From Hyphomicrobiales bacterium (GTDB lineage: Bacteria > Pseudomonadota > Alphaproteobacteria > Rhizobiales > Xanthobacteraceae): a stretch of DNA of 40,865 nucleotides. Both the position numbers and the translations under genes were made by a program. Numbering within the stretch: the stretch's first letter is position 1; each line of letters starts with the position of its first letter. This document shows, one piece after another, positions 19,779 through 30,524 of the stretch. A model generated the notes under the pieces. It saw nothing but the letters and a program-made list of their open reading frames with translations. It did no database searches and was not told the DNA's origin. The stretch covers positions 1-40,865 of the forward strand of contig JACPOA010000005.1 in NCBI GenBank assembly GCA_016185205.1, in the 5' to 3' direction.

Positions 19779-22700
19779 TCACTCCGCCGGCCGCAAACGC
19801 GGCGACGGGCGGCGGCGGATGAAACTCGGCGCGCCGCCGCCGAGCTTGCGGTGCAGCCGGTCGAGCAGCAGATAGATCACCGGCGTGGTGTAGAGCGTGA
19901 GCATCTGCGACACCAGCAACCCGCCGATGATGGTGATGCCGAGCGGCCGGCGCAGCTCGGAGCCAGGGCCGGCCGCGATCACCAGCGGCACCGCGCCCAG
20001 CATCGCCGCCATGGTCGTCATCAGGATCGGCCGGAAACGCTCCAGGCAGGCTTCGTGAATGGCTTGCAGCGGCGTGAGCCCGCGCTTGCGCTCGCCCTCG
20101 AGCGCGAAGTCCACCATCATGATGCCGTTCTTCTTCACGATGCCGATCAACAGAATGATGCCGATGAAGGCGATCACGGTCAGCTCGGTGCCGGAGATCT
20201 GCAAAGCGAGCAGCGCACCCAAGCCGGCGGACGGCAGCGTCGAGATGATGGTGAGCGGGTGCGCCAGACTCTCGTACAGCACGCCGAGCACGATATAGAC
20301 CGCGATCAGCGCCGCCAGCAGCAGCAGCGGCTGCGCGCTGACGGTCCGCTTGAAGGCCTGCACGTCGCCGGAGAATTCGGCGTGGATCGCGTCGGGCACG
20401 TGCATTTCGGCCACCGCCTGCGCGAGCGCCGCGGTGGCCTGCTCGATCGTAGTGCCGGGCGCGATATTGTAGGTGATGGTCACCGACGGGAACTGGCCTT
20501 GATGGTTCACCACCAACGGTGCGATGCCGCGCTCGATGCGCGCCACCGTCGAGAGCGGCACCTGTGTATTGCCGGCACCTGTGACATAGACCTGGGTCAG
20601 GTCGGTCGGATCGCGCTGGTATTTGCGGTCCACTTCCAGGATCACCCGGTATTGGTTGCGCGTGCTGTATATGGTCGAAATCTGCCGCTGCGAGAAGGCA
20701 TTGTTGAGCGCGTTGTCGATGTCCTGGATGCGCACGCCTAGCCGCGCGGCGGTCTTGCGGTCGATGCTGACGTTGGCCTGCAGGCCGCCCTGTTCGCGGT
20801 CGGTGGTGACGTCGACCACGCCGGCCACCGTCTTCACTTTGTCGACCACGCGCGGCACCCAGACTTGCAGCAGGTCGATATCGGAGCTCCACAGCGTGAA
20901 CTGATATTGCGAGTCGCTCTGCCGGCCGCCGATTCGCAGATCCTGCGCCGGCACCATGAACACCCGGATGCCGGGGATGCCGTTGAGCTTGGCGCGCAGA
21001 CGCGCCACCACAGCTTGCGTGGTCACATTGTTGCGCTCGCTTAGCGGCTTCAGGCTGATGAATAACCGCCCGCGATTGACCGAGGCGTTGAAGCCTGAGG
21101 CGCCGACCGAGGAGCCCAGCCCCGCCACCGCCGGGTCAGCCAGCACGATGTCCATCGCCTTCTGCTGAATCTGCACCATCGCCTCGAAAGAAATGTCGGT
21201 CGAGGCCTGTGTGCCGCCGAAGATAAGTCCGGTATCGTCCTGCGGGAAATAGCCCTTCGGCGTCTTGATATAGAGACCGACCGTGAGCGCGATGGTGGCG
21301 AGAAACGCGATCATCGCCAGCGCGCGGTGTTCGAGCATGAAAGTCAGCGTGCGGTCGTAGAAGGCGATCATGCGCGACAGCGCGCCCTCGACCCGGCGGT
21401 CGAGCCAGGTCGCGTTGCGGCTCGGCGCCGCCCGCACGAAATAGGCGCAGATCATCGGCGTCACCGACAGCGACACCACGGTGGAGACGCCGATGGCGAA
21501 AGCCAGCGTCACCGAAAATTCGCGAAACAGCCGGCCGACAATGCCGCCCATGAACAGCAGCGGAATGAACGCGGCAATCAGCGATACCGAAATCGACACC
21601 ACGGTGAAGCCGATCTGCTTGGCGCCCTTCAGCGTGGCGCGCAGCGGCGAGTCGCCGTTTTCCAGATTGCGGAACACGTTCTCGATCATCACGATGGCGT
21701 CGTCGACCACGAAGCCGATGCTCACCGCCAGCGCCATCAGCGACAGATTGTCGATGGAAAATCCGGCCAGCCACATCGCCGCGCAGGTGCCGGCGAGCGA
21801 CAGCGGCACCGTGATGCCGGCAGCGATGGTCGCCGCCGTGCGCCGCAGGAAGATGAACACCACCATCATCACCAGCAGCGCGGTGGCGCCGAGCGTGAGC
21901 TGCATGTCGTGCACGCTGGCGCGGATGGTCTGGGTGCGGTCGGTCAGCACCGAAATATCGAGGCCGGCCGGCACCCATTGCCGCAGCTCCGGCAGCAGCG
22001 CGTAGATGCGATCGACCGTATCGATGACGTTGGCGTTGCCCTGCTTGGTGATGATCAGCAGCACCGAGGGGTCGCGGTTGTACCAGCCGGCCGAGCGGCT
22101 GTTGCGCACGCTGGCGCGGATCGAGGCCACGGTGGACAGGCGGATCACGTTGCCGTTCACGGTCTTCACCACCAGCGGGTCGTATTCGTTGGCGTTGCGC
22201 AGCTGGTCGTTGATGCCGATGCTGACCGCGCGCTTGTCGCCGTCGAAACTGCCGAGCGGGCCGAGCGCATTGGAATTGGCGATCGCCGTTCGCACGTCCT
22301 CCATGGAAAGGCCCATGGCGGCGAGCCGCGTCGGATCGACGCGCACGCGCAGCGCCGGCTGCTCGGAGCCGGCGACGGTGACGTCGGCGACCCCGTCCAC
22401 CTGCGACAGGCGCTGTGCGATCACGCTGTCGGCGGCATCGTAGATCGCGCTCGGCTGCATGGTCTTGGAGGTCAGCGCCAGGATCAGGATCGGCGCCGCC
22501 GACGGATTGGCCTTGCGGAAGGTCGGCAGCGTCGGCATGTCGCCGGGCAGGTCGCTGAGCGCGGCATTGAGCGCGGCCTGCACGTCGCGCGCGGCGCCTT
22601 CGATGCTGCGGCTCAAATCGAACTGGATGGTGATGCGCGAAAGCCCGGTCGAGCTGGACGACGTCAGCTCGGTCACCCCGGAAATCTCGCCCAGCCGCCG

Positions 22701-22904
22701 CTCCAGCGGCGCCGCCACCGTCGCCGCCATGATGTTGGGGTCGGCGCCCGGCCGGCTGGCCGACACGAATATGGTCGGGAAATCGACGCTCGGCAGGCTG
22801 GCGACCGGCAGGAAGCGATAGGCCACGGCGCCCACCAGGAACAGTCCGATCGCCAGCAGCGTGGTGCCGATCGGCCGGCGGATGAACGGCCGCGAGAAAT
22901 TCAT
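19779..22904 (-). CDS. RND efflux pump subunit, MdtC-like
   Basis: A 1041-residue inner-membrane RND transporter driven by protons. The first membrane helix starts FIRRPIGTTLLAIGLFLVG, and the proton-relay aspartate pair is in GFVVDDAIVMIENVFRNLE. It has the usual two large periplasmic loops and twelve membrane segments. Its start overlaps the stop of the MdtB-like gene by four bases (ATGA), so the two are coupled and probably form a mixed trimer as in MdtBC. The frame stays open far upstream of 22904, but that stretch is only a shadow of the MdtB-like gene. It is the last gene of the pump unit. Efflux of drugs, bile-type detergents or metals is possible. Confidence 0.93.
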   Translation of the reverse strand: MNFSRPFIRRPIGTTLLAIGLFLVGAVAYRFLPVASLPSVDFPTIFVSASRPGADPNIMAATVAAPLERRLGEISGVTELTSSSSTGLSRITIQFDLSRSIEGAARDVQAALNAALSDLPGDMPTLPTFRKANPSAAPILILALTSKTMQPSAIYDAADSVIAQRLSQVDGVADVTVAGSEQPALRVRVDPTRLAAMGLSMEDVRTAIANSNALGPLGSFDGDKRAVSIGINDQLRNANEYDPLVVKTVNGNVIRLSTVASIRASVRNSRSAGWYNRDPSVLLIITKQGNANVIDTVDRIYALLPELRQWVPAGLDISVLTDRTQTIRASVHDMQLTLGATALLVMMVVFIFLRRTAATIAAGITVPLSLAGTCAAMWLAGFSIDNLSLMALAVSIGFVVDDAIVMIENVFRNLENGDSPLRATLKGAKQIGFTVVSISVSLIAAFIPLLFMGGIVGRLFREFSVTLAFAIGVSTVVSLSVTPMICAYFVRAAPSRNATWLDRRVEGALSRMIAFYDRTLTFMLEHRALAMIAFLATIALTVGLYIKTPKGYFPQDDTGLIFGGTQASTDISFEAMVQIQQKAMDIVLADPAVAGLGSSVGASGFNASVNRGRLFISLKPLSERNNVTTQAVVARLRAKLNGIPGIRVFMVPAQDLRIGGRQSDSQYQFTLWSSDIDLLQVWVPRVVDKVKTVAGVVDVTTDREQGGLQANVSIDRKTAARLGVRIQDIDNALNNAFSQRQISTIYSTRNQYRVILEVDRKYQRDPTDLTQVYVTGAGNTQVPLSTVARIERGIAPLVVNHQGQFPSVTITYNIAPGTTIEQATAALAQAVAEMHVPDAIHAEFSGDVQAFKRTVSAQPLLLLAALIAVYIVLGVLYESLAHPLTIISTLPSAGLGALLALQISGTELTVIAFIGIILLIGIVKKNGIMMVDFALEGERKRGLTPLQAIHEACLERFRPILMTTMAAMLGAVPLVIAAGPGSELRRPLGITIIGGLLVSQMLTLYTTPVIYLLLDRLHRKLGGGAPSFIRRRPSPRLRPAE

Positions 22905-25900
22905 GACCGGCCTCGCGCCGGGCGCGCCCGACGCGGGGCGAGCCGCGGCGGCTCGGGCGGCGGCGTCGGCACCAGCCGCGCGCGCAGCCGCTCCATATAG
23001 AGATAGATCACCGGCGTGGTGTAGAGCGTGAGCAATTGGCTGAGCAGCAACCCGCCGACGATGGTGATACCGAGCGGATTGCGCAGCTCCGAGCCGGTGC
23101 CGCTTTCCAGCGCCAGCGGCAGCGCGCCGAACAGCGCGGCGAGCGTCGTCATCATGATCGGGCGGAAGCGCAGCAGCGCCGCTTGCACGATCGATTCTTC
23201 CGGAGTCATACCCTGGTGGCGCTCGGCCTCGATGGCGAAGTCGATCATCAGAATCGCGTTCTTCTTCACGATGCCCATCAGCAGCACGATGCCGATCAGC
23301 GCGATCACCGAGAGATCGTAACCGAACAGCATCAGCGCCAGCAGCGCGCCGACGCCGGCCGAGGGCAAAGTGGACAGAATGGTAAGCGGATGTATGAAGC
23401 TTTCGTACAGCACGCCGAGCACGATGTAGATGGTGATGGCGGCGGCCAGCAGCAGCCATGGCTCGCCCGCCAGGGACTTGGCGAATTCGGCGGCATCGCC
23501 CGAATAGGCGCCGGTCACCGACGACGGCATGCCGATCTCCTGCTGCGCCGCGCCGATCAGCGTGACCGCGTCGGACAGCGCGTAGCCGGGCGCCAGATCG
23601 AAGCTGATGGTGACGGAGGGAAACTGCTCCTGGTGCGCGATCGCCAGCGGGGCCGAGGTGTTCACGAAGCGCGCGAAGGCCGCCAGCGGCACCTGGTTGC
23701 TGCCGGTGACGGTGTTGGGCGTGGCGGTGGTGTTGGTGCTGGTGCTGCCGCTGGCGGTGTTGGCGACGGTGGCGGCGGTGCCGGTCGAGGTGCTCGAGCC
23801 GGTGACATAGAGCTTGGACAGCGCGCCGGGGTCCTGCTGGTAGCGCGGCTGCGCTTCCAGGATGACGCGGTACTGGTTGGCCTGCCCGTAGATGGTCGAA
23901 ATCTGCCGCTGGCCGAAGGCGTCGTTGAGCGTGTCGGTGATGCTCTGCATCGACACGCCGAGGCGGCCGGCCTGCTCGCGGTCGACATTGACATTGACGC
24001 GCGGCCCGCCTTCCTGCGCCTCGGAGGCGACCTCGCGCAAGGCCGGGTTGCCGCGCAGCCGCCGCGTCAGCGTATTGGCCCATTCCAGCACTTCGGCCGT
24101 ATCGGTGCCGACCAGCGTGTACTGATACTGCGCGCGGCTGGCGCGCGTGGAAATCTGGATATCCTGCGTGGCCTGGAAATACACCGTCATGCCGGGAATG
24201 CCGGCGACCGCGATTTTCAGCCGCGCGACGATCTCATCGACGCGCGCGCTGCGCTGGCTGCGCGGTTTCAGCGAGATGGCGAGCCGGCCGGCGTTGGGCG
24301 TGGCGTTGAGCGGGCTGACGCCGATCACCGAAACCACACCGGCGATATCGGCATCGGAGCGGATCGCAGCCTCCACCGTCTGCTGGCGGCGCTGCATTTC
24401 GCTGAACGAAACATCGGCGCCGGCTTCGGTCACCGCGGTGATCAGGCCGGTGTCCTGTAGCGGCAGGAAGCCCTTGGGAATGACGATGTAGAGGAAAATC
24501 GTGGCGGCGAGCGTCGCCAGCGTGACCAGCAGCGTCTCGCGCTGGCGGCGCAGCACCCAGAGCAGGCTGCGGTGATAGAATTCGACCGTGCGCTCGAGCA
24601 GGTCGTGAAAGCGGCGCATCAATGCGCTGTCGCGGGCGACGCCGCCAAGATCGCCGCCTTGCCGCAGCAGGCGGGCGCACATCATCGGCGTCAGCGTCAG
24701 CGAGACGATGGCGGAGGCCACCACCGCGATGGTGAGCGTGAGCGCGAATTCGCGGAACATGCGCCCGACCAGCCCGGTCATGAACAGCAGCGGAATGAAC
24801 ACCGCGATCAGCGACAGCGTGAGCGAGATCACCGTGAAGCCGATTTCTTTGGCGCCGCGCAGCGCCGCATCGAGCGGCTTTTCGCCGTCCTCCATGTGAC
24901 GCACGATGTTCTCGATCATGACGATGGCGTCGTCGACCACGAAGCCGGTGCCTATGGTGAGCGCCATCAAAGAGAGGTTATCCAGCGAGAAGCCGGCGAA
25001 CCACATCACGCCGAAGGTCGCGATCAGCGACAGCGGCAGCGCCACGCCGGCGATGATGGTGGCGCGGATGGTGCGCAGGAAGATCAGCACCACCAGCACC
25101 ACCAGCACGACGCTGAGCATCAGCGTGAATTGCACGTCGTGGATCGAGGCGCGGATGGTGGTGGTGCGGTCGTTGACGATGGTGAGCGTGGCGCCGGCCG
25201 GCATTGCGCGCCGCAGCCGCGGCAGCTCGGCGCGCACGCGTTGCACCGTCTCGATCACGTTGGCGCCGGGCTGGCGCTGCACGTCGAGGACGATCGCCGG
25301 CGCGCCCTTGTAGGAGGCGCCGACCTTGGTGTTCTCCAGGCCCTCGACCACGTCGGCGATGTCGCCGAGCAGTACCGGCGCGCCGTTGCGGAACGCCACG
25401 GTGATGGATTTGTAGGCCTCGCCACTGGAAAGTTGATCGTTGGCGGCGACCGAGTAGGACTGGTGCGCGCCGTCGAGCGAGCCCTTCGGTCCGGCCACAT
25501 TGGCGCCGACGATGGCGGTGCGCAGGTCTTCCAGCCCGATGCCATAGGCTGCCAGCCGCGACAAGTCGGCCTGGATGCGGATCGCCGGCCGGATGCCGCC
25601 CTGCACCGAGACGTGGCCGACGCCGGTCACCTCCGACAGCCGCGGCGACATGATGGTGTCGGCCATGTCGCTGAGCGTGCGCAGGTCGATGGCGGGCGAG
25701 GTGAGCGCCAGCGTGATGATCGGCACGTCGGCCGGATTCACCTTGGAATAGCGCGGCGGATAGGGAAGGTTGCGCGGCAGCGTGGAGCCGGCGGCGTTGA
25801 TCGCCGATTGCACGTCCTGCGCGGCGGCGTCGATGTCGCGCGCCAGATCGAATTGCAGCGTGATCTGGCTGATGCCGAACGAGCTCGACGAGGTCAGGGT

Positions 25901-26134
25901 CTGCAGCGCCGGAATCTGGCCGAACGTCCGCTCCAGCGGCGCGGTCACCAGCGCGGTGATGGTGTCGGGATTAGCGCCGGGAAGCTGGGTGGTGACCTGG
26001 ATGGTCGGGAAATCCACCTGTGGCAGCGCCGATACCGGCAGCCACCAGTAACCAAGCGCGCCGCCCAGCATCACCGCGACGCCGAGCAGGGAGGTGGCGA
26101 TCGGCCGGTGAATGAATGGGGAAGACACGCTCAT
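22901..26134 (-). CDS. RND efflux pump subunit, MdtB-like, with Ser/Thr-rich insert
   Basis: A 1077-residue RND transporter, paralog and partner of the next gene. It opens FIHRPIATSLLGVAVMLGG; the proton-relay pair is in GTGFVVDDAIVMIENIV. It is longer than its partner partly through a stretch of about 30 residues rich in Ser, Thr, Ala and Asn at about 778-812 (VTGSSTSTGTAATVAN and onward), just before NQVPLAAF in the second periplasmic loop. The partner has only VTGAGNTQVPL there. Four-base ATGA overlaps link it to the membrane-fusion gene before it and to the MdtC-like gene after it, so all are made from one transcript. Confidence 0.93.
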   Translation of the reverse strand: MSVSSPFIHRPIATSLLGVAVMLGGALGYWWLPVSALPQVDFPTIQVTTQLPGANPDTITALVTAPLERTFGQIPALQTLTSSSSFGISQITLQFDLARDIDAAAQDVQSAINAAGSTLPRNLPYPPRYSKVNPADVPIITLALTSPAIDLRTLSDMADTIMSPRLSEVTGVGHVSVQGGIRPAIRIQADLSRLAAYGIGLEDLRTAIVGANVAGPKGSLDGAHQSYSVAANDQLSSGEAYKSITVAFRNGAPVLLGDIADVVEGLENTKVGASYKGAPAIVLDVQRQPGANVIETVQRVRAELPRLRRAMPAGATLTIVNDRTTTIRASIHDVQFTLMLSVVLVVLVVLIFLRTIRATIIAGVALPLSLIATFGVMWFAGFSLDNLSLMALTIGTGFVVDDAIVMIENIVRHMEDGEKPLDAALRGAKEIGFTVISLTLSLIAVFIPLLFMTGLVGRMFREFALTLTIAVVASAIVSLTLTPMMCARLLRQGGDLGGVARDSALMRRFHDLLERTVEFYHRSLLWVLRRQRETLLVTLATLAATIFLYIVIPKGFLPLQDTGLITAVTEAGADVSFSEMQRRQQTVEAAIRSDADIAGVVSVIGVSPLNATPNAGRLAISLKPRSQRSARVDEIVARLKIAVAGIPGMTVYFQATQDIQISTRASRAQYQYTLVGTDTAEVLEWANTLTRRLRGNPALREVASEAQEGGPRVNVNVDREQAGRLGVSMQSITDTLNDAFGQRQISTIYGQANQYRVILEAQPRYQQDPGALSKLYVTGSSTSTGTAATVANTASGSTSTNTTATPNTVTGSNQVPLAAFARFVNTSAPLAIAHQEQFPSVTISFDLAPGYALSDAVTLIGAAQQEIGMPSSVTGAYSGDAAEFAKSLAGEPWLLLAAAITIYIVLGVLYESFIHPLTILSTLPSAGVGALLALMLFGYDLSVIALIGIVLLMGIVKKNAILMIDFAIEAERHQGMTPEESIVQAALLRFRPIMMTTLAALFGALPLALESGTGSELRNPLGITIVGGLLLSQLLTLYTTPVIYLYMERLRARLVPTPPPEPPRLAPRRARPARGRS

Positions 26135-27429
26135 TGCTGCGCGTTCGGCCTCGTATTATTGCCGCCCCGTGTAGTGCCCGCCGGACGCTGGCCATCGTCC
26201 ACAGGGCGTTGGCCGCTGCGCGGCCGCGCGCCTTGTGCCCCGGCGGCGGGCGCGCCTTCGGCGCTGCCGATCGTGATCTTGCCGCCATCGACGAGGCGGG
26301 CGAAGCCGGTGGTGACCACGCGCTCGGGCGGCTCCAGTCCGCTCGCCACCACGGTCTGCGTCTCGTCCTGCTTCTGCACATTGATCGGGCGCATCGTCAC
26401 CGTGTTGTCGTCCTTGACCACGTAGACGAAGGTGCCGTTCGGCCCGCGCTGCACCGCGCCGGTCGGGATCACCACTAGCTGCTTGAGGGTATCGATCAGC
26501 AGTCGGACATTGACGAACTGGCCCGGCCATAGTTGCAGGTCGGTGTTGGGAAACTCGGCCTTTAGCTTTACCGTGCCGGTCGACTGGTCGACCTGATTGT
26601 CCACCACCCTGAGCGTGCCGCGGTCGATCACCGCGTCGTTGTCGGAGCGCTGCGCCTCGACGCTGAGCGGGCCCTTGGCAAAGGCGCGGTTGACTTGGTT
26701 GAGCTCCTGCTGCGGCAGGTTGAACAACACCGAGATCGGGCGCAACTGGGTGAGGGTGACGATGCCGGTCGAATCCGAGGCACGCACGATATTACCTTCG
26801 TCGACCTGGCGGATGCCGGTGCGCCCTGCGATCGGCGCCACGATGTTGGTGTAGCTGAGCGTCGCCTGCGTGTTTTCGATTGCCGCCTGGTCGGCTTGCA
26901 CGAGCGCGGAATATTGATTGACCAGCGCCCGTTGCGTGTCGGCCTGCTGGCGGTTGATGGCGTTGGTGCTGGCCAGCTTTTCATAACGATCAAGGTCGAT
27001 CCTGGAATTGGCAAGCTGCGCTTCGTCCTGCGCCTTCTTGGCCTGCGCCTGGGAGAGCGCCGCTTTGAAGATGGTCGGGTCGATGCGCGCCAGCACGTCG
27101 CCCTTCTTGACGTCCTGGCCTTCCTTGAAGGCGACCTCGATCAGCTTGCCGTCGACTTGCGCGCGCACCGTGACCGTGTTGAGCGCCCGGGTGGTGCCGA
27201 CCGCGCCGAGATAGACCGGCACGTCCGCGCGGACCGCCGCCGCCACCAGCACCGGCACCGGCCCCTCGGCGCCGAAGCGGCCGCCGGCACGGCGCTGCGG
27301 CTCGAGCGAGCCGGTGAACTGATAGACCAGCGCCGCCGCGATCAGGATGACGACCAGGCCGACGACAAGCGTGCGTTGCTTGCGGCGGCCGGTCTTCGCC
27401 CAAATCTGCTTCGGCAGCTCACCATGCAT
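26131..27429 (-). CDS. RND periplasmic membrane-fusion protein, MdtA-like
   Basis: A 432-residue adaptor joining the RND pump to the outer-membrane channel. One N-terminal membrane anchor at about residues 20-38 follows a basic stretch (KTGRRKQR). Next come a lipoyl half-motif (VRAQVDGKLIEVAFKEGQDVKKGD in the usual place), the alpha-hairpin with ALSQAQAKKAQDEAQL, the second lipoyl half (IVAPIAGRTGIRQVDEGNIV) and the beta-barrel domain. The tail is rich in Gly, Arg and Gln and probably disordered. I chose the ATG at 27429, after GGTGGAAA, which overlaps the outer-membrane gene by 11 bases; a start at 27465 would be further inside that gene. Confidence 0.9.
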   Translation of the reverse strand: MHGELPKQIWAKTGRRKQRTLVVGLVVILIAAALVYQFTGSLEPQRRAGGRFGAEGPVPVLVAAAVRADVPVYLGAVGTTRALNTVTVRAQVDGKLIEVAFKEGQDVKKGDVLARIDPTIFKAALSQAQAKKAQDEAQLANSRIDLDRYEKLASTNAINRQQADTQRALVNQYSALVQADQAAIENTQATLSYTNIVAPIAGRTGIRQVDEGNIVRASDSTGIVTLTQLRPISVLFNLPQQELNQVNRAFAKGPLSVEAQRSDNDAVIDRGTLRVVDNQVDQSTGTVKLKAEFPNTDLQLWPGQFVNVRLLIDTLKQLVVIPTGAVQRGPNGTFVYVVKDDNTVTMRPINVQKQDETQTVVASGLEPPERVVTTGFARLVDGGKITIGSAEGAPAAGAQGARPRSGQRPVDDGQRPAGTTRGGNNTRPNAQQ

Positions 27430-28912
27430 CAGATGTTTCCACCGGCCTCGGCAACCAGCCGCCACCGAGCGCCTGATAAAGACTCACGACCGCCTGGACG
27501 TGCGCGAGCCGCGCCTGCGCCAGCGCGTCCTGCGCCTGATAGAGCGCCTGCTGGGTTTGCAGTACGATGACCAGATCGACCGTGCCCTCGCGCAGGCGCT
27601 GCTCGGAAATATCGAAGGCGCGCCGCGAGCTCGTTACCACGTCGCGCTGCAGCCGCTCGCGCAGCGCCGTCTGGCGGATGTCGTTGAGCGCAGTCTCGAC
27701 GTCGGCGAAGCCGGAGATCACCGCCTTGCGGTAATTCTGCAGCAACTCGTCCTGTTTGCCTTTCTGGTAGTCGAGATTGCCCTGCAGCTTCAGGCCGTCG
27801 AAGATCGGCTGCGTCAGGCCGGCGGCGAGATTGAAGAACGCCGATTCCGGCCGCATCAGGATTTTGAGCACCGAGCTCTGATAGCCGCCTTCGCCGGTGA
27901 GCGTGATGCTCGGCAGGAACTGCGCGCGCGCATTTTCGACATTGGCGTTGGCGGCGGCGAGATCGGCCTCGGCTTTGCGGATGTCGGGCCGCTGCGTCAG
28001 CAACTCGGACGGCAGGCCCGGCGTTACGCGCGGGACGGCGATGCTGCGCAACGATCCGCCGCGCACGCGCACGCTTTCGGGCGAGCGCGCCATCAGCACC
28101 GCGAGCGTGTTGCGGTTCTGCGTCAAGGTTTGTTCCAACGGCGGGATCGCCGCGCGCTGGGTATTGACCAGGCTTTCCTGCTGCGCGGTGTCGAGCGCGG
28201 AGGCCGTGCCGGCGTTGAGCCGCTGCTGGATCAAATTGAGCACGCGGGTGGCGCTTTCCAGGTTCTCGCGCGCGGCCTTGAGCCGGTCCTGCGCGGTCAG
28301 CACCTGGAAATAGGCGTTGGCGGTGGCGACCACGGTGGTGAGGCCGACCACTTCGCGGTCGTAGCGGCTGGCGACCGCGGTCTGTTCCGCCGCGCGCAGG
28401 GCGGAGCGGTTCTTGCCCCAGAAGTCGATCTCATAGCTGGCGGTAAGCGAGGCGGTGAGAGTGTTGCTTACGGAAAAGCCCTTGTCGTCGAACGGCATGC
28501 CGTTGCCGAGGCCGGTCGTCTTGGATGCCTGCGAGCGCGCGGCGTCGCCGCTCAGGCCGACATTCGGCAGCAGAGGCGCTCCGGCCATGCGCGACTGCGC
28601 GTCGGCCTGCACGATGCGGGCGACCGCGGCGGCGATATCGAGATTGGCGGAGCGCGCTTCTTCGATGATTTTGGTCAGCTCGCGCGAGCGGAAGCCGCGC
28701 CACCAGTCGAGCGGCGGCAGCGCCGCCTCGGCCAGCTCGGGATTTTTCGGGCCGCGGTCATAGGCCTGCGGGATATCCAACCCGGGCTCGGGCTTGTCGG
28801 TCAGCAGGCAGCCACCGAGCGGGAGCATCAGACATAACCCCTGGAGCATGGCCAAAAACGGACGCCCCCCCGTTTTCGCTCCCCAGCGCAAACTCGTGCT
28901 AACGCAACGCAT
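27419..28912 (-). CDS. Outer-membrane efflux lipoprotein, NodT/TolC family
   Basis: A 497-residue outer-membrane factor that lets the pump expel its substrate to the outside. A signal peptide ends in the lipobox LPLGGC, so the mature protein is probably lipid-anchored. The rest follows the NodT pattern: WWRGFRSRELTKIIEEARS, the paired repeats with ANAYFQVLTAQDRL and TALNDIRQTALRERL, and a C-terminal VSLYQALGGGW. The ATG at 28912, after GAGGG, gives a basic leader before the hydrophobic part; a later ATG at 28849 would leave too short a leader. The gene comes before the adaptor and pump genes on the same strand, and 78 bases after the metal-sensor-like gene. Confidence 0.88.
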   Translation of the reverse strand: MRCVSTSLRWGAKTGGRPFLAMLQGLCLMLPLGGCLLTDKPEPGLDIPQAYDRGPKNPELAEAALPPLDWWRGFRSRELTKIIEEARSANLDIAAAVARIVQADAQSRMAGAPLLPNVGLSGDAARSQASKTTGLGNGMPFDDKGFSVSNTLTASLTASYEIDFWGKNRSALRAAEQTAVASRYDREVVGLTTVVATANAYFQVLTAQDRLKAARENLESATRVLNLIQQRLNAGTASALDTAQQESLVNTQRAAIPPLEQTLTQNRNTLAVLMARSPESVRVRGGSLRSIAVPRVTPGLPSELLTQRPDIRKAEADLAAANANVENARAQFLPSITLTGEGGYQSSVLKILMRPESAFFNLAAGLTQPIFDGLKLQGNLDYQKGKQDELLQNYRKAVISGFADVETALNDIRQTALRERLQRDVVTSSRRAFDISEQRLREGTVDLVIVLQTQQALYQAQDALAQARLAHVQAVVSLYQALGGGWLPRPVETSDAW

Positions 28913-28990
28913 GCCCACAACCCTCAAAACGACTGTTACAACAAGGTCCGTGAAGGGAAACTAGCCTGAACGGATGCCTGTTGCTCGATT

Positions 28991-29470
28991 TTATTGCTGT
29001 TTGGTCTCGGATTTTCGTCCGGGCGGCCAGTCGGCCAGCGCATGGCGGCCGGCGGCCGACATTTGCGCCGCCGTGCTCGCGAACACCCCCTGGATGGTCT
29101 GGTCGAAATTCTGCCGGGCGGCGCGGGTCCTGGCCATGGCCTCGCGCATGGCCACCGGATCGAATGGCTCCTGCCGCAGGGTGGCGCGGATGCCGTCCTG
29201 GGCGGTGCGGTATTTTGTCTGGGTGTCCTCGATTGCCTCGCGGTTGGCTTTGATCTGGCCGCGCAGCAGGTCGGCGTCGGACGGTGGTAAAGTGGTGGCA
29301 ATCCGCTCGACCCGCACGAAAACGTTGCGGTCCCAGGTCGGCGTCGCCGGGGCGCGGATCGTGATCGCCACCGCGGCGCCGAAGAAGAACAGATTGAGCG
29401 CGAGCGAACCGAGCAGCAGCCAGCGCGAGGAGCCGCGCGTCATGGCCGGAGCGAACTGGGCGAGGGTCAT
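28991..29470 (-). CDS. Periplasmic heavy-metal-sensor-like protein (CnrX/Spy-like)
   Basis: A 159-residue protein with one N-terminal membrane segment at about 17-38 (WLLLGSLALNLFFFGAAVAI) and a helical periplasmic part, as in the proteins annotated as periplasmic heavy-metal sensors. The helices run through DADLLRGQIKANREAIEDTQ and MREAMARTRAARQNFDQTI. There are few His and no Cys residues in the periplasmic part, so direct metal binding is doubtful; it could sense envelope stress instead. The gene overlaps the anti-sigma candidate by four bases (ATGA) and stands before the pump genes. The set resembles cnrYXH of Cupriavidus in arrangement, though not closely in sequence as far as I can tell. 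Confidence 0.8.
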   Translation of the reverse strand: MTLAQFAPAMTRGSSRWLLLGSLALNLFFFGAAVAITIRAPATPTWDRNVFVRVERIATTLPPSDADLLRGQIKANREAIEDTQTKYRTAQDGIRATLRQEPFDPVAMREAMARTRAARQNFDQTIQGVFASTAAQMSAAGRHALADWPPGRKSETKQQ

Positions 29471-29832
29471 GGACGTGCTCCGGTCAGCGCTTCGGGCTCG
29501 AATACGACCGAGCCGATGCCGGCGCGGCTAAAGGCCGCGAAGGATGCGTTGGCGACGTCGAATTGGCGGTCGAGCCCGGCCAGTCCGATGCCGAAACCGA
29601 GCGCGGCGCAGCAGGCCAAGGCGGCGACGCGCGGCCAGGCCGGCGCGAATTGCCAGTCGAGCAGCACCGAAGGCAGGCGCCAGAACGCGAGTTTCTGCCG
29701 CGGCAGCGGACGGCTAAGCCGTTGCAGCACGCGGCCGACCGCGGCCGCGTCGGCTTGCGACGTCGCGTCGCGGCGCTTGAGCGCAGTTTCGAGAAATTTT
29801 TCGAACTGTGCATCTGTCATTTTTTTTGTCAT
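29467..29832 (-). CDS. Membrane-bound anti-sigma factor candidate
   Basis: A 121-residue protein with no family I can name firmly. Residues 1-70 are soluble and charged (MTDAQFEKFLETALKRRDA), then one membrane segment follows at about 75-92 (VAALACCAALGFGIGLAGL), and a short periplasmic end closes it. This build, a short cytoplasmic head and a single membrane helix directly after an ECF sigma gene, is that of an anti-sigma factor. The ATG at 29832 starts one base after the sigma stop and uses GGGGAAGAG as its ribosome site; an earlier ATG at 29850 lies inside the sigma gene. It overlaps the sensor gene by four bases. No zinc-binding HxxxCxxC is present. Confidence 0.7.
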   Translation of the reverse strand: MTKKMTDAQFEKFLETALKRRDATSQADAAAVGRVLQRLSRPLPRQKLAFWRLPSVLLDWQFAPAWPRVAALACCAALGFGIGLAGLDRQFDVANASFAAFSRAGIGSVVFEPEALTGARP

Positions 29833-29833
29833 C

Positions 29834-30379
29834 TCACTCTTCCCCGTCAATCACGTGAACTAAACGCGCCCGCAAATTCTGTTTGCCGCGCACCAGCAAG
29901 GTCTCGACCGCCGACACTGACGTGCCGAGTATGTCCGCCACCTGCGCATTGCTCATGCCCTCGCTATAGGTGAGCACGATGGCCACGCGCTGGCGCGCCG
30001 GCAATTCGGCAATCGCGACCGCCAGCTGTTGCTCGCGCTCGTCGTGCTCGGCCGTCTCAGTGGCGCGGGGCGCCGGGTCGACAAGCTCGCCGGCCGCCTC
30101 CAGTGCGACCCAGCGCGCGCGCCGCTTGCGGTCGAGACAGAGATTGACCACCACGCGCGTGAGCCAGGTGCGGAACGCCGCCAGCGGCTGCCAGCGCGGC
30201 GCATGGGTCCATACCCGCAGCATGGCTTCCTGCGCCACGTCCTCGGCGTCGGCGGCGTTGCCGAGGATGCGGCGGGCAAGCCAGAGTATCGCCGGCAGAT
30301 GACGGCGCGTGAGCGCACGGTACGCGGGCTCATCGCCGCGCGCGACCAGGGCCATGAGCGCTTCGTCGCTGTCATCCAT
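29834..30379 (-). CDS. ECF-type RNA polymerase sigma factor
   Basis: A 181-residue sigma-70-family ECF factor. Region 2 is seen in NAADAEDVAQEAMLRVW and TWLTRVVVNLCLDRKRR (about 41-87), and region 4, the helix-turn-helix that reads the -35 box, in LPARQRVAIVLTYSEGMSNAQVADILGTSVSAVETLL. Nothing is missing or added. The anti-sigma candidate and periplasmic sensor follow in overlapping order, and the RND pump genes come after them on the same strand, so the pump is a likely target. I found no clear copy of an ECF-type GGAAC promoter upstream of this gene or of the pump genes, so self-control is unproven. Confidence 0.92.
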   Translation of the reverse strand: MDDSDEALMALVARGDEPAYRALTRRHLPAILWLARRILGNAADAEDVAQEAMLRVWTHAPRWQPLAAFRTWLTRVVVNLCLDRKRRARWVALEAAGELVDPAPRATETAEHDEREQQLAVAIAELPARQRVAIVLTYSEGMSNAQVADILGTSVSAVETLLVRGKQNLRARLVHVIDGEE

Positions 30380-30524
30380 CGAGTTGTGGCAGCCGCCATC
30401 GGAAAGACCCGTCCATTGTAGTCCTTGGCCTATCCGATTAACGGGCGGGGGCCCTGAATCCTGTGCTTTGGGGACAGTGGGAATAGCGGGGGTAATTTCG
30501 GGTATAACCGGCTAAGCTATTGAA

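Follow-up and report, generated by a model that had tools for sequence, protein, structure and literature searches.

A CnrX-like sensor and an ECF sigma factor encoded in front of an MdtABC-like efflux pump in Xanthobacteraceae: a proposed envelope-stress regulon

What does an extracytoplasmic function (ECF) sigma factor respond to, and which genes does it command, when it is encoded with an anti-sigma candidate and a periplasmic sensor directly in front of a multidrug-type efflux pump? The question is raised by a locus of a Hyphomicrobiales bacterium (Xanthobacteraceae), analyzed here in a stretch of 40,865 nucleotides (the window), which corresponds to contig C15 in a genome of 4.38 Mb (G000). 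Seven minus-strand genes, running from 30379 to 19779, encode in order the sigma factor, the anti-sigma candidate, the sensor (together, the triad), an outer-membrane factor (OMF), a periplasmic adaptor and two resistance-nodulation-division (RND) permeases, RND-B and RND-C. Taken as a whole, the data make it likely that these genes form the core of an autoregulated envelope-stress regulon. A preliminary description of this DNA had given the seven genes on one strand and their close spacing, and both were borne out by the positions of the open reading frames and by family scans. The best start of the anti-sigma gene (ATG, 29832) lies one base past the end of the sigma gene, the sensor gene overlaps the anti-sigma gene by 4 bases, the OMF gene starts at an ATG (28912) 78 bases past the end of the sensor gene, and the two RND genes each overlap their upstream neighbor by 4 bases.

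The sensor is present in 84 of 341 genomes of the family (own genome included); named records with a sensor relative are two Pseudolabrys metagenome-assembled genomes (MAGs) and two MAGs of uncultured Rhizobiales, Pseudolabrys belonging to the Hyphomicrobiales, Xanthobacteraceae. Within the genus, a close sensor match occurs in 40 of 43 genomes, with none in G553 and G583 and a distant match alone in G416. A sigma orthologue (at least 64% identity) is found in 41 of the 43 genomes, that of G583 near a contig end, and is missing from G416 (best match 46%; assembly 99% complete) and from G553 (no match above 31%; 86% complete). Of the 83 sensor loci in genomes other than the own one, 60 were fetched; the remaining 23 are mostly the more distant ones. 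The full seven-gene order was seen in 27 of 37 close genus loci, the other 10 ending at a contig edge inside the run; given this retention, the order is beyond chance. The one further genus locus (L110, from G416) holds the distant sensor alone. Of the 22 family loci fetched from outside the genus, 9 carry the same block downstream (in one of them it is cut off past the adaptor) and 8 carry different RND-type genes whose adaptor is divergent from sigma (four of these also have adaptor genes downstream); in 4 the sensor occurs with no sigma gene, and the remaining one has both sigma and sensor but no RND gene. The divergent unit consists of an adaptor and one RND gene, as confirmed in five re-fetched loci. 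The search for the same gene order in relatives, suggested in the preliminary description, thus came out in its favor, and triad and pump are not rare neighbors, since RND-type genes occur in 17 of 18 other-genus loci holding both sigma and sensor.

Two peculiarities of individual family loci may be mentioned here. One of the 27 complete loci, L078 (G557:C208), combines the genus triad and OMF with an adaptor of 43% identity and a replaced RND pair, which is 65-70% identical to the downstream pair of L123, L125 and L126 in another genus; either the pump was exchanged while the switch stayed in place, or the assembly is chimeric. Loci L113, L114, L117 and L120, from one family genus, hold a sensor relative without an adjacent sigma match.

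Across the order, the sensor profile matches 68 of 297 genomes (own included). We fetched 20 of these loci, from 19 other families, with up to 10 kb per side and less on short contigs. Sigma adjoins the sensor in all 20, and no RND, adaptor or OMF match (E 1e-8) was found near the triad in any of them within these limits. In a sigma tree of 57 rows (the window, 36 of 55 fetched family sigmas and the 20 of the order), the pump-linked sigmas fall together with two label changes, the surrounding branch having a support of 93. Because of these label changes and the pump-less triads of other families, pump linkage is most simply read as a derived state. Judged from gene neighborhoods and the tree, the triad is older than its link to the pump; it would be a module of long standing in the order and no pump regulator by nature, with pumps acquired as targets in this lineage. 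By eye, an EF-hand-like gene often lies just 5′ of sigma in the other families (L251, L253, L254, L263, L265, L267 and others), and in L257 and L260 genes resembling an adaptor, an FtsX-type permease and an ABC ATPase are divergent from the triad and may form a further exporter linked to this switch.

The genus loci share the consensus C[AG]CAGG-W-TT-N13-CGTT-N-A upstream of sigma. If W may also be G, the match is exact in 36 of 38 loci and has one mismatch in the other 2 (a descriptive count), vs. none of 380 shuffles at one mismatch or fewer. In 36 aligned loci, the columns of CAGG and CGTT hold about 2 bits each and those of the spacer, free to vary in sequence but constant in length, less than 1. 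The exact pattern (A or T at W, CAC start) has 35 matches in 32 of 43 whole genus genomes and none for a reversed control; its single match in the window's genome is the one at 30465-30438. With one mismatch allowed, there are 94 matches in 43 of 43 genomes, vs. 15 for the control. A separate ECF promoter before the pump genes was ruled out, as the region upstream of the OMF gene is at background (4-6 mismatches in 38/38 loci). Since the motif stands before sigma at 38 of 38 loci and is absent before the pump genes, the predicted ECF-type promoter 5′ of sigma probably drives all seven genes. No sigma-70-type promoter was detected between 19400 and 30700 (shuffle mean 1.0) in what is a weak test based on an E. 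coli-like consensus, and terminator-like matches in the same interval are at chance level.

Motifs of this type also occur before other pumps. Each of 8 loci from three other genera has a pair of inverted copies (CGCAGGGTT-N13-[CG]GTT-N-A, with no more than one mismatch) in the DNA that separates sigma from the divergent RND adaptor gene. This is again a descriptive count; no shuffle out of 400 fell below 3 mismatches. The shared promoter proposed in the preliminary description was accordingly found before sigma and before these divergent pumps, but not before the OMF gene. The copies not linked to the triad provide a better test than the counts at sigma or at the divergent pumps. An unlinked second adaptor-RND pump (on C54 in the window's genome) is present in 38 of 43 genus genomes, and an exact CAGG-N16-CGTT lies within 320 bases upstream of it in 29 of the 30 genomes examined for it; the longer pattern, at two mismatches or fewer, is found in 26 of 30 genomes vs. 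3 of 600 shuffles. The exception is G416, which has no sigma orthologue and where the site looks degenerate by eye. The second pump groups with the divergent pumps of the other genera in a weak placement (support 88, long branch).

A small secreted Gly/Tyr-rich protein, encoded in 17 of 43 genus genomes at E 1e-5 (own copy L282:1498-1878, G000:C27), carries an ECF-type motif with at most two mismatches upstream in 13 of the 17 cases (two mismatches in the own genome), vs. none of 340 shuffles. One of the four non-matching cases had a match that began inside the gene, and the upstream region tested was not the true one. No significant Pfam or NCBIfam match was obtained for the three members scanned. 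With motifs of this type before an unlinked second pump and a secreted protein, the view of the locus as a self-contained module did not hold up. The relaxed pattern CRCAGG-N16-CGTTNA has 13 matches in the own genome (control, 3). The ten that remain after the operon, the second pump and the small protein are set aside were rejected as further targets, 8 overlapping predicted genes and 2 having no predicted gene close downstream. One of the 8, on C91, is located where a divergent predicted gene starts, about 120 bases ahead of another gene, and could still mark a target.

The type of pump and the nature of the sensor bear on what the system might respond to. The best family models of the pump proteins are MdtA/MuxA, MdtB/MuxB and MdtC, all with scores under the curated equivalog cut-offs, while the RND subunits reach only 404 and 350 bits against the metal-efflux family TIGR00914 (cut-off 701). 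On these scores, the pump is MdtABC/MuxABC-like rather than of the metal type. RND-B and RND-C are two different adjacent subunits that form separate groups in a tree, with 10 rows each across relatives, and the MdtBC-type pair of the preliminary description can be kept as MdtBC-like.

The sensor belongs to PF13801 (Metal_resist), with 74.7 bits vs. a gathering cut-off of 29.2 (E 9.5e-21). A model was built from 42 aligned sequences, that of the window and 41 from the 60 fetched loci. It (mean pLDDT 86.9) has a membrane helix at residues 14-38, a helical hairpin (63-99 and 105-134) and short flanking helices; its top Foldseek matches are NccX (4clv) and CnrX (2y3d), with probability 1.00, TM-scores by target of 0.55 and 0.71 and 13-15% identity. 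The metal ligands of CnrX are His42, His46, His119, Glu63 and Met123, of which only E63 and M123 appear in the PDB titles. No His or Cys is fully or almost fully conserved across the 42 aligned sensors, in keeping with the earlier remark that the sensor is poor in both, and the periplasmic part in the window has one His and no Cys. The protein seems to have a CnrX-type fold that lacks a metal site of the known kind. A search of the sensor profile against PDB sequences gave nothing significant. The mean His count is 3.1 in 41 pump-less sensors vs. 1.4 in 38 pump-linked ones; we do not claim that a metal site was lost upon pump capture, as no aligned His column separates the two sets. In L080 (G531:C222), the sensor gene has an in-frame TAG after about 44 codons, with the sigma, anti-sigma and pump genes remaining. 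A second PF13801 protein of the window's genome (G000:C8:7843-8094; L134, L177) scores 38 bits, and no match to the operon genes lies in the 6.5 kb around its gene.

The sigma protein carries ECF-type regions 2 and 4, and its NF004113 score is just above the cut-off of 208 bits. Against PDB sequences, it matches CnrH (4cxf) with an E-value of 5.8e-14, with SigE, SigW and SigL scoring better; by similarity it is an ECF sigma factor not specially related to CnrH. The anti-sigma candidate has one hydrophobic segment, at which a conserved LLDWxFAPAWPRVAALA is located in 28 aligned sequences, and a conserved C-terminal tail, VFEPEPLTGARP, that is VFEPEPLTG-like in most of them. Its profile had no significant match among PDB sequences, and no CnrY chain was found there. 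An out-of-frame ATG lies at 30399 (minus strand), 20 bases 5′ of the sigma ATG, and nearly every genus locus has one 17, 20 or 23 bases before the start of sigma, with the frame constant except in L105. It opens a long overlapping frame of 142-195 codons, which could be a leader or a product of chance in GC-rich DNA.

Table 1. Features of the seven-gene operon in the window.
Feature	Position	Strand	Basis
ECF-type promoter, CACAGGATT-N13-CGTTAA (putative)	30438..30465	-	5′ of sigma; pattern match
ECF sigma factor, 181 aa	29834..30379	-	Sigma70_r2 6.1e-21, Sigma70_r4_2 4.8e-15; NF004113 211 bits
Anti-sigma candidate, 121 aa	29467..29832	-	gene place; 28-sequence alignment
Membrane-anchored periplasmic sensor, 159 aa	28991..29470	-	PF13801 Metal_resist; fold model
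NodT-type outer-membrane factor, lipobox-like LGGC	27419..28912	-	TIGR01845 342 bits, cut-off 210
Periplasmic adaptor, MdtA/MuxA-like; alternative GTG start 27465	26131..27429	-	NF008589 378.8 bits, cut-off 391
RND permease B, MdtB-like	22901..26134	-	NF007798 1272 bits, cut-off 1584; ACR_tran 1057 bits
RND permease C, MdtC-like	19779..22904	-	NF007905 1234 bits, cut-off 1774; ACR_tran 1019 bits

Family scans of the run gave Sigma70_r2/r4, PF13801, OEP, HlyD/RND_mfp and ACR_tran. The operon is flanked by a ketopantoate-reductase-like gene upstream, on the same strand, and by a convergent aldehyde dehydrogenase gene downstream.

The mechanism that we propose takes gene order, conservation, families, a fold model and motif places from the sequences, and infers from them the protein contacts, the signal, transcription and the pump substrates. 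The sensor, with one N-terminal helix as anchor and a CnrX-type helical periplasmic domain, would hold the membrane-spanning anti-sigma, probably by gripping its conserved C-terminal tail, and the cytoplasmic part of the anti-sigma would hold the ECF sigma. By analogy with CnrYXH, a periplasmic stimulus would loosen the complex. As the RND family is of the drug type and the metal residues are missing, a metal is a less likely stimulus than envelope damage or amphiphilic toxicants. The freed sigma would read C[AG]CAGG-N16-CGTT promoters, giving a single transcript for all seven genes from its own promoter; it would probably also read the promoter before the unlinked second pump, and perhaps the one before the small secreted protein.

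One alternative is a metal-responsive resistance system of the CnrYXH type, in which the sensor binds metal and the pump expels it. The 'heavy-metal resistance' label of PF13801, the CnrX/NccX-like fold and the distant similarity of sigma to CnrH all point that way, but the lack of conserved His and Cys residues in the sensors and the TIGR00914 scores, far under the cut-off, speak against it, and we consider it improbable. Scarcely more probable is that the triad is a general envelope-stress switch merely adjoining a pump that is expressed mainly from its own or a housekeeping promoter. This would account for the pump-less triads in other families and for the 78-base gap before the OMF gene; it fits poorly with the absence of a detectable sigma-70-type promoter (for what that test is worth), with the joint conservation of the sigma promoter and the gene order, and with divergent RND operons that have their own copy of the motif. 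A third possibility, compatible with an autoregulated operon, is that the motif before the second pump belongs to another ECF sigma of similar promoter taste. The genus genomes do contain further ECF-like matches with 25-46% identity, the second-pump motif differs from that of the operon beside the -35 box, and G553 keeps it; against this, G416 lacks both sigma orthologue and motif in a nearly complete assembly and, in related genera, a similar RND pump adjoins triad and motif, with the reservation already made about the kinship of these pumps. We regard this explanation as doubtful, though clearly better placed than the other two.

Several observations weigh against the autoregulated envelope-stress regulon that we favor. 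The motif was derived from the same loci in which it was counted, hence the descriptive nature of the counts for sigma and the divergent pumps. A single genome, G416, supplies the argument from sigma loss, and in G553 the second-pump motif persists with no sigma match above 31%, in an assembly that is 86% complete. The region around the second-pump motif has extra conserved letters (TGCAC, TATGCTAG), given which another factor may act there. The Foldseek E-values for CnrX and NccX are weak (0.06-0.5, none below 0.001), NccX superposes poorly on the model (rmsd 14), and there are matches to Spy and CpxP as well, at lower rank. The anti-sigma protein has no Pfam or NCBIfam family match and is a candidate by gene place and protein shape. 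Lastly, the group of MdtABC-linked sigmas has a support of just 44, and the pump-less sigma L250 falls among or beside the pump-linked rows.

A wider proposal, which we put forward tentatively, is that a CnrX-fold sensor devoid of a metal site reads organic or envelope stress and, by way of an ECF sigma, coordinates an RND pump in cis, a second one in trans and a secreted helper, the triad being an exchangeable switch that captured different pumps in different genera, with the replacement of adaptor and RND pair in G557 as a further instance. If correct, this would link intrinsic multidrug-type efflux in Alphaproteobacteria directly to an ECF switch and exemplify how a stress switch takes over pumps. 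It also raises the testable question of what a CnrX-fold sensor reads without a metal site.

The closest known arrangement is CnrYXH-CnrCBAT of Cupriavidus metallidurans, in which an ECF sigma, a membrane anti-sigma complex and a periplasmic sensor are clustered with a tripartite RND pump (PMC9045368). The likeness to CnrYXH seen in the preliminary description is supported by the distantly CnrH-like sigma and by the modeled fold of the sensor, which resembles CnrX and NccX. Unlike in cnr, where the order is Y-X-H and CnrH promoters lie at cnrY and cnrC, the order here is sigma, anti-sigma, sensor, with one inferred promoter; the locus also differs in having no conserved metal residues, two drug-type RND subunits and promoter copies elsewhere in the genome. 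MdtABC of E. coli and MuxABC of P. aeruginosa likewise consist of an adaptor and two different RND subunits. The pump described here differs from them in its sub-cut-off equivalog scores, in having its own OMF gene first in the pump block, and in its neighbors, with no mdtD or baeSR and an ECF switch in place of a two-component system; E. coli MdtABC is under BaeSR in the account consulted (PMC4229105).

The same account describes SmeIJK of Stenotrophomonas maltophilia, an MdtABC-like two-RND pump with sigmaE-dependent induction by membrane-damaging agents, for which direct sigmaE control was proposed from a putative site only. There, sigmaE and RseA are encoded in a separate rpoE-rseA-mucD operon (PMC4229105), whereas here the switch lies within the pump operon and has a CnrX-fold sensor. 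The 'different wiring' foreseen in the preliminary description must thus be narrowed: ECF control of this type of pump has a precedent in trans, while the wiring in cis with a CnrX-fold, apparently metal-free sensor is a novel form of it. In Azospirillum brasilense, RpoE8, a hypothetical protein and a 'periplasmic heavy metal sensor' share one operon (PMC12826043), which, by its description, resembles the triad; in Caulobacter CaBP-SigV, an EF-hand gene adjoins sigV (PMC13171946), reminiscent of the EF-hand-like neighbor in other families. No efflux pump is mentioned in the passages on either (PMC12826043, PMC13171946). The anti-sigma link of CaBP-SigV is left unresolved in that account, and an adjacent anti-sigma and sensor may, by analogy, supply it. 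No report of this wiring in Hyphomicrobiales was found by title or start of abstract among the matches listed from the open-license PMC literature, from which we do not claim its absence from print. The kind of system is thus known from cnr, and ECF control of an MdtABC-like pump is known in trans from SmeIJK; as far as our searches show, the new elements are that switch and pump are paired in cis, that the sensor is apparently metal-free, that a second pump is joined in trans, and that there are signs of pump capture and exchange.

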